Origin: Burkholderiales bacterium | Lineage (GTDB): Bacteria; Pseudomonadota; Gammaproteobacteria; Burkholderiales; SG8-41 | Length of the DNA: 64,000 nucleotides | Reading direction: 5' to 3' | Assembly: GCA_030683105.1 (NCBI GenBank) | Contig: JAUXMZ010000039.1 | Span: 1 to 64,000 of the forward strand | Shown: positions 30,714 through 61,387 of the stretch, one piece after another | Layout: every line of letters starts with the position of its first letter | How positions within the stretch are numbered: the first letter of the stretch is position 1 | Position numbers and translations under genes: made by a program | Notes under the pieces: generated by a model | Seen by the model: the letters and a program-made list of their open reading frames with translations, nothing else | Told to the model about the DNA's origin: nothing | The model's database searches: none

Positions 30714-30978
30714 GAGTCCCTAACATAATGAAACGCATGATGCGCTGGCACGATTTTGGCTCAGGACGCGAAGCTTCCCGCAGGCCCTATCGTGAATATG
30801 GGCAAGGGGAGCGACAAAGTCATGGGCCAAAACTCGTGCCAGCCCGAAGGGTTGCGATCAAAATCGGCGCTGACTTTGTCGGCCGGCTTGACCATATTCG
30901 CGATATGCTCTGCGCCGTCCTTCGCGTCATCACCAATTTTGATCGCAACGCACACGTGTTTCATTATGTTAGGGACTC
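30714..30978. mobile_element. MITE-like element with 21-bp terminal inverted repeats
   Basis: The 265-bp element has perfect 21-bp terminal inverted repeats (starting GAGTCCCTAACATAATGAAA) and is flanked by TAA on both sides (30711-30713 and 30979-30981), a plausible target duplication. It lies between the carboxylase and hydratase genes of the liu operon. Inside, each half is itself a stem-loop. The left half pairs 30938-30955 with 30849-30867, and the right half pairs 30743-30759 with 30826-30842. The loops of the two halves are related in inverted orientation. No transposase gene is present. Confidence 0.8.
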
Positions 30979-31018
30979 TAAGTGCTGCGTGCCAGTATTC
31001 GGAATGTGACATGCATGC

Positions 31019-38804: not shown

Positions 38805-38857
38805 TAGGGCCTGTTAACAATTACCACATCTCACGCGGTAATTGTTAACAGGCCCTA
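38805..38857. repeat. Perfect 21-bp inverted repeat between phaC and the SDR gene
   Basis: Arms 38805-38825 and 38837-38857 (TAGGGCCTGTTAACAATTAC and one more base, with complement) are perfectly complementary around an 11-nt loop. There is no T-tract, so it is not a simple terminator. Its GGGCCTGTTAACA ends look like the tips of a mobile element, but there is no second copy in this window. The 181-bp gap holds nothing else. Confidence 0.9.
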
Positions 38858-38945
38858 GTGACGGCGTCAGGCAGGCGAACCGCGGTGCGGTTTCACGGGC
38901 CGGCAATCCTTTGCCGGCGAGGGGTCTGTTTTTGGAGGACGGCCG

Positions 38946-61008: not shown

Positions 61009-61387
61009 GTGCGCCGGGCATGGCGCGTTACTTCATAGGTGAAAGTCCTATGGCCAGGTTTTCGCAGAGCCGAAGGCAAGGAGAAGGGCACCAAAAGTAG
61101 GCGCCTCTATCTCTGGAAACAATGGGGGCCGTCGGGCTATCGGGAACTGCGCAAGCGCGGGGTGTCTGTGCGCGAAGCGTGGAATACCAGTAAGTCGGCC
61201 CATGGCCCGTGGCGGCTGTCCAAGACGCCGGCATTGGCGATCGCGTTACCATTGCGCTTCTTCACAAACTTGGGACTGCCGAATCTTGCACCACGGTAGG
61301 AATACAATTCATCGAACCGCCGGATACGTGACCCGTACGTCCGGTGGTGTGGGAGGGAGGGGCCGTGAGGCTTCTTCCTATCCCGAT
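61009..61387 (+). mobile_element. Remnant of a group II intron (class C-attC type)
   Basis: The 5' end GTGCGCC followed by AGGTGAAAGTCCTATGGCC (61033-61053 region) is typical of bacterial group II introns. From about 61098 to 61299 a frame encodes YLWKQWGPSGYRELRKRGVS to HGPWRLSKTPALAIALPLRF, the C-terminal maturase end of intron reverse transcriptases. Then GAACCGCCGGATACGTGACC (61315 onward) and TATCCCGAT mark the 3' ribozyme domains. Most of the ribozyme and reverse transcriptase is deleted (379 bp remain of about 2 kb). It sits in attC6, in the cassette orientation. Confidence 0.8.

Follow-up and report, generated by a model that had tools for sequence, protein, structure and literature searches.

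The element at 30714-30978 of the window (the whole stretch of 64,000 nucleotides analyzed here) is certainly a non-autonomous transposon of the MITE type, and its interior consists of two inverted, diverged copies of a single hairpin unit of ~100 nt. Comparison with related elements suggests, with a probability that we place at about 0.7, that IS5-family transposases act in trans on the ends of this element to mobilize it, and that its cargo, the hairpin unit, is old and strand-specific.

Structure of the element and its hairpin unit

The complete element spans 265 bp and is bounded by mismatch-free terminal inverted repeats of 21 bp at 30714-30734 (plus strand) and 30958-30978 (minus strand), each with TAA immediately outside it, as stated in the initial annotation of this DNA, which also termed the element MITE-like. 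That assignment stands: the element is devoid of a transposase gene, is shorter than ~600 bp, and combines inverted ends and TNA flanks with presence in several copies. Elsewhere in the window the 21-bp end sequence has no further site at up to 3 mismatches, and 100 dinucleotide shuffles yielded none. The neighboring genes, named by eye from their translations, are enoyl-CoA-hydratase-like and carboxyltransferase-like, and run in the same direction. Near the end of the window, at 61315-61387, there is a separate match to the group II intron model RF00029 of Rfam (41.7 bits against a cut-off of 40).

The core hairpin unit occupies 30851-30949, with the minus strand scoring as sense, and attains 105.1 bits with the covariance model R1, whose building sequences include this same copy. 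The second unit, at 30744-30843 on the plus strand, is a diverged inverted copy that displays the same parts when read on that strand. The arms are 93% complementary in the second unit (30744-30757/30830-30843) and 88% in the core unit (30851-30874/30926-30949). The initial annotation had likewise given each half a stem-loop of its own, but with left and right exchanged, GCTGGCACGA belonging to the left half on the plus strand and GTTGCGATCAAAAT to the right; it was correct in proposing a stretch common to both halves in inverted orientation, which measures 58 nt at 76%. Between the two units lies the junction CCCGAAGGG (30843-30851), which forms a small third hairpin and recurs, as such or in near variants, in many two-hairpin elements. 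The folding energy of the entire element is -143.4 kcal/mol, compared with -83.8 +/- 5 kcal/mol for shuffles (z = -11.9).

An alignment of 35 elements from the host and related genomes defines the conserved half as a hairpin of ~98-101 nt, built of a 24-bp outer stem, an internal loop, a 7-bp stem, a GCA/AA loop, an 8-bp stem, and a tip. The first internal loop occurs in two versions, namely GCGAA/GACAAA and AAGGC/AACGCN, and the tip within the host family is mostly CGNGA. When read on the opposite strand, the second half shows the same parts in many elements, and a different or shortened hairpin in others. The unpaired loops on the 3' side are strongly conserved across the class, with AAC in 76 and AA in 72 of 80 distinct rows, which were picked by the model. 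In 27 class-wide rows the unpaired positions carry 1.09 bits, against 0.75 bits for paired ones.

Copies and end types in the host genome

BLAST searches of the host genome recovered five near-complete copies of the window end type, including that in the window, with the other four at 90-95% identity, together with two interrupted copies with large internal insertions (C56 and C38) and additional fragments. The same end type also forms five short end-to-end palindromes of ~46-50 bp (C8, C15, C50, C11 and C68). This collection by end repeats excludes a single-copy element. At up to 3 mismatches the window end sequence occurs at 25 sites in the genome, compared with none for the reversed control; nine of these sites are ends of the five short palindromes, with C68 having just one end under the cut.

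The interior is also found in the host genome at ~69-79% identity between other ends. A sister end type, GGGCCTGTTAAC, has at least a dozen copies, several of them truncated by contig ends and most with an additional stretch within one hairpin, and a third end type, GGAACCTATCTTAACC, is represented by one copy. A 55-bp end-to-end palindrome with sister-type ends is present in the window itself, at 38805-38859. Nested GC-rich insertions in loops or arms are seen in three elements (G000 C56:32176-32567, C38:43953-44490 and C29:4124-4593), all of which contain a CGTTTGCCGCAGGCCCGTTTGCGGG-like stretch, and that on C38 has a second, different insertion; these are apparently other palindromic repeats that entered the hairpins. 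The congeneric genome G002 contains a distinct short element of ~89-115 bp on C217, C327, C253 and C375 (L173, L174, L175 and L177), whose ends resemble GAGCGCCTAACATAATGACG and GAGCGCCTAACAAAATAAAT.

Phyletic distribution of the unit

The exact tip pattern was recovered from the genome contig collection in 43 stretches, of which 24 come from betaproteobacterial MAGs or assemblies, another 11 from MAGs that bear the label Bordetella parapertussis, and eight from other groups; the last eight have no inverted ends around them and were taken as chance matches. Allowing one mismatch, the pattern was present in 15 of 60 relatives including the host genome, all from the host's family, and in none of 24 genomes from other families. 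The R1 covariance model finds more than the tip pattern: counting the host genome in each case, it has matches in 54 of 74 genomes of the host's family, covering 9 of 9 genera, in 37 of 369 sampled genomes of the class (E <= 1e-4), and in 27 of 398 sampled genomes of the phylum (E <= 1e-5), 16 of which lie outside the class. The copy numbers from the class and phylum searches are lower bounds because only 10-11 candidates were scored per genome.

Carriers found with BLAST include plasmids of Azotobacter chroococcum, such as pAcX50f of strain NCIMB 8003, of Pseudomonas aeruginosa PA83 and of Halomonas sp. PA16-9, as well as large replicons of Burkholderia cenocepacia and B. stagnalis; R1 recognizes full-length units in the Azotobacter, Pseudomonas and Halomonas carriers and in B. 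cenocepacia. The copy of P. aeruginosa resides in a gap between two annotated genes, without any listed feature. BLAST against plasmids with the window element and L358 as queries, and against phages with L437, gave no matches. Rfam has nothing over the element at the gathering score, and a lax threshold brought up three microRNA models with E values of 1.7 to 7.5, far under their cut-offs. A literature search that reached a minority of subscription journals returned no recognizable description of the unit. Thus we found no description of it in Rfam or in the literature searched, and older reports of individual members may exist.

Diverse ends around a conserved unit

Sixty of the matches listed in the R1 class search were taken for closer study. 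For the class-wide architecture, 90 units from 80 loci were retained after removal of two of 92 rows that were antisense readings of counted units. One-hairpin elements with spans of 149-188 bp account for 29 of the 90 units. Another 31 elements have the size of a two-hairpin element, 253-278 bp; R1 detected both units in 7 of them, and for the remainder the second hairpin is judged from element length and partial inspection. The spans of two elements fall outside both ranges, and no inverted ends were seen in 21 rows, many of which lie close to contig ends. Many relatives lack the second hairpin or have an unrelated or shortened one. Between the element end and the base of the nearer hairpin there are mostly 27-38 bp, with 40-45 bp in one genome.

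The end sequences, which include AGGAACCTCTGATTAATTC, CTAGTGTCCTGTCCC, CTAGTACTCCGTCAAGG and CTAGGGTCTGTTGACG among others, are highly diverse across the class. The hairpin unit, in turn, is common to different end types, both inside one genome and across genomes. Because it recurs between different ends, the unit is older and more widespread than the ends with which it is found. The ends would have changed by exchange or by co-divergence.

Probable connection to IS5-family insertion sequences

Elements of the window end type have TNA flanks, and both 3-bp flanks are identical in 11 of 24 elements, all 11 being TNA; the flanks of this end type, such as the TAA/TAA pair in the window, thus have the form of a target-site duplication. 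Among other end types, 5 of 15 rows have TA next to both ends, with 2 of the 15 rows read one base out of register.

Three genomes of the host's family contain complete IS5-family-like insertion sequences of 828, 824 and 831 bp, with one end, TAGGGYCTGTTAACAAT, nearly identical to the GGGCCTGTTAAC-type element end, and the other being TAGGGYCTGTACACA. The frames of the third (831 bp, G008) match DUF4096 and DDE_Tnp_1, and the first two (828 and 824 bp) were assigned by eye from the likeness of their frames to it. In each of the three, a run of A lies close to where the frames overlap, as in two-frame members of the IS5 family. G008 possesses at least 4 elements with the sister end type alongside the matching insertion sequence. 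Hence, of the initial annotation's suggestion of an insertion sequence with matching ends, the part that holds concerns the sister end type. For the window end type, no parent was found in 35 regions around lone ends of that type, among the ends listed; these and five sister-type regions, 40 in all, contained only the sister-type insertion sequence. The single match to DDE_Tnp_1 (PF01609) in the host genome is without window-type ends. A search of 17 hairpin-bearing genomes with DUF4096 (PF13340) gave 7 matches in 4 of them: one (L424) is the complete 831-bp insertion sequence with sister-type ends, another (L425) has one end somewhat like the window type with no right end found, and around the other five there is no complete insertion sequence with such ends. 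Judged from these sequence features, mobilization by IS5-family transposases appears likely.

Covariation and strand polarity of the fold

Both stems stay paired through compensatory changes, as the initial annotation had anticipated. RNAalifold detected two-sided, pairing-preserving changes in 24 of 33 pairs in 34 left units (alignment A1, comprising 34 of 35 units since L134 is identical to L117, with some C-type rows off by one column near the base), and in 19 of 29 pairs in 20 right units (A2, the 20 of 35 units judged clearly homologous). Across the class, 20 rows (A4, aligned to the model, with one antisense row retained) show such changes in 38 of 39 pairs, and 93.5% of their cells are paired, compared with 62% when shuffled and 34-40% when partners are slid. 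The persistence of pairing in both stems through compensatory changes points to selection on the structure rather than a decaying palindrome, and it is very likely that the structure is under selection.

The mismatches further reveal a polarity. The 97 distinct left units contain G-U 208 times against 39 A-C, G-A 98 times against 18 T-C, and G-G 55 times against a single C-C, and the 80 distinct class-wide rows give 229 G-U, 55 A-C, 124 G-A and 47 T-C. When counted by family across the class (n = 23), G-U exceeds A-C in 19, falls below it in 1 and ties in 3 (p = 4e-5). Alignment A3 used the best 150 of 237 matches, of which 20 were then removed as antisense readings of units already counted. 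Model-fitted alignments are biased towards pairing; rows of model length, taken without realignment, give 117 G-U to 29 A-C in 66 family rows and 92 to 24 in 27 class rows, with G-A not above T-C in the latter (44 to 39). In 100 loci hand-picked, rather than drawn at random, from the family R1 matches, left units score 85-111 bits in the sense reading and 30-63 bits in the antisense reading of the same sites. The right units show a weak excess of G-U (39 against 31 A-C, 18 of the latter from a single column). As unconstrained duplex DNA would produce the two mismatch types equally, the preponderance of G-U over A-C indicates that one given strand is selected as the fold. Thus, one particular strand of the unit folds, and neutral palindrome repair does not explain the G-U excess.

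The initial annotation had also envisaged two mutually exclusive folds, with arms paired within halves or loop with loop across them. This is energetically possible in the five copies of the window end type in the host genome, in which the cross-half duplex is within ~7 kcal/mol of the free minimum: the values are -140.2 against -146.8 kcal/mol for the window copy, and -134.6 against -131.9 kcal/mol for that on C76, where the duplex is slightly below the free minimum. In three other elements tried the duplex is 20-33 kcal/mol worse. Evolutionary support for the switch is absent, with the likeness of a half to its own partner being 0.527 against 0.506 to partners from other elements (mean rank 0.40, chance 0.5; n = 20). 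A fold switch is therefore possible in window-type copies, yet it is not the conserved property.

Gene context and orientation

When genes are called with a home-made ORF heuristic, 30 of 35 host-family elements are flanked by genes on both sides, of which 22 lie between tandem, 4 between convergent and 4 between divergent genes, and none is inside a called gene. Relative to the tandem genes, 11 are in the same and 11 in the opposite orientation. Among 28 one-hairpin elements from across the class, 14 are in tandem, 9 in convergent and 4 in divergent settings and 1 is inside a gene, with 6 in the same and 8 in the opposite orientation to tandem genes, a small sample; of 29 two-hairpin elements 17 are tandem, 9 of them in the same and 8 in the opposite orientation. 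The polar fold, being oriented nearly evenly with respect to tandem genes, does not follow transcription. Accordingly, action inside the host mRNA was rejected for want of an orientation bias (11/11, 6/8 and 9/8, small counts obtained with the home-made caller). A general replication-strand bias was likewise rejected, as neighboring units on one contig in the family and class R1 matches agree in strand, by eye, about as often as they disagree. On the 2.7-Mb single contig C1 of G664, all 10 of 10 scored units are on the plus strand at 0.30-1.38 Mb and on the minus strand at 1.67-2.59 Mb, a pattern that would fit orientation by replication and that the units on G042 and G829 do not share.

Nature of the folded form and alternative explanations

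Two explanations dispense with a selected nucleic acid fold. Template switching could copy one arm onto the other and so mimic compensatory change without selection. The long, near-perfect arms, the terminal repeats that are likewise kept perfect, and the compensatory changes seen between copies of a single genome are all compatible with such correction; it nevertheless predicts equal numbers of G-T and A-C mismatches, contrary to what is observed, and leaves the greater conservation of unpaired over paired positions unpredicted, making it an improbable account. The unit could alternatively be a gene for a small protein, since the core-unit strand is open in one frame in the window copy, where an 83-aa ORF on the minus strand (30761-31012) runs across the element. 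The paired changes at the tip (CATAT/ATATG, CGTAT/ATACG and CTTAT/ATAAG) alter residues, copies differ by one-base indels, and the frame from the ATG of the end stops at TGA after 11 codons in the C76 copy. The coding reading, which we regard as highly improbable, was rejected given that the two-sided changes in the tip stem run against the protein frame.

The folded form is hence taken to be RNA or single-stranded DNA, with RNA slightly preferred. That the unit is a mobile, structured non-coding RNA, produced by transcription of the element or by read-through and acting in trans or on the element's own copy, is a real possibility that falls short of an even chance. It would account for the tolerance of G-U and purine-purine pairs on one strand, for the conserved purine-rich internal loops whose sides change in step (GCGAA/GACAAA to AAGGC/AACGCN), and for the mostly C-GNRA tips in the host family. 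Against it are the mostly non-GNRA tips across the class, the lack of an Rfam match at threshold, the single-unit elements with no orientation bias towards transcription, and the fact that DNA, too, tolerates G-T and G-A better than other mismatches. Slightly less probably, a hairpin of single-stranded DNA might form in replication, transfer or repair and be bound by a host protein or by the transposition machinery, aiding transposition or protection. The random orientation relative to transcription, the presence of elements on plasmids as well, and the two inverted units, which provide one sense hairpin per strand, are consistent with this; the absence by eye of a general replication-strand bias speaks against it, although G664 splits cleanly, and to our knowledge IS5-type transposases have no requirement for single strands.

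With either form, we favor a non-autonomous element in which resident IS5-family transposases would move the ends in trans, and in which the cargo unit, in one copy or two inverted copies, would be retained because one strand must fold when single-stranded. The ends would change to fit whichever related transposase is resident, with the folded unit staying. Because its orientation is random relative to flanking genes, the folded unit would most likely serve the spread or persistence of the element itself and not the neighboring genes. A bolder version, which we advance only tentatively, would make the folded unit itself the selfish entity: a mobile structured nucleic acid (RNA or single-stranded DNA), so far undescribed and spread over the phylum, which borrows ends from successive IS5-type transposons.

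Relationship to known mobile elements

The closest parallels are the MITEs derived from the IS5 family, which are similarly short, without a transposase gene of their own, with inverted ends and TNA-type flanks, and mostly intergenic; the match of the sister end type to a resident IS5-family insertion sequence agrees with this. The present elements differ from them in the conserved folded unit that is common to different end types and absent from the insertion sequences seen. REPINs or BIMEs, which are REP doublets moved by RAYT, are also intergenic and contain two inverted hairpins, but the elements described here have 100-nt units with two internal loops, transposon-type inverted ends and target-like flanks. 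Identity with integron attC sites, which fold as single-strand hairpins of the form 5' RYYYAAC ... GTTRRRY 3', was rejected because the unit has the opposite polarity, 5' GTTGYGG ... CCRCAAC 3'. The Correia/NEMIS and ERIC elements are comparably MITE-like, and we know of no conserved internal-loop unit in them, in contrast to the single unit common to many end types across the phylum. The Correia/NEMIS and ERIC elements are reported in a review to affect transcripts via RNase III or RNase E, and QMITE2 of Coxiella is a MITE whose predicted transcript folds strongly and which, unlike the elements described here, is associated with direct repeats of 7-9 bp (PMC10969869).

Implications

MITEs are commonly viewed as deletion remnants with arbitrary interiors. 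In the elements described here conservation lies in the interior and change in the ends, with strand-specific selection on structure extending across the phylum. The R1 model could mark many unannotated copies, including those on plasmids of cultured strains. The folded unit seems to have a function, and the benefit that a folded strand brings to a bacterial mini-transposon thereby becomes a question amenable to testing.
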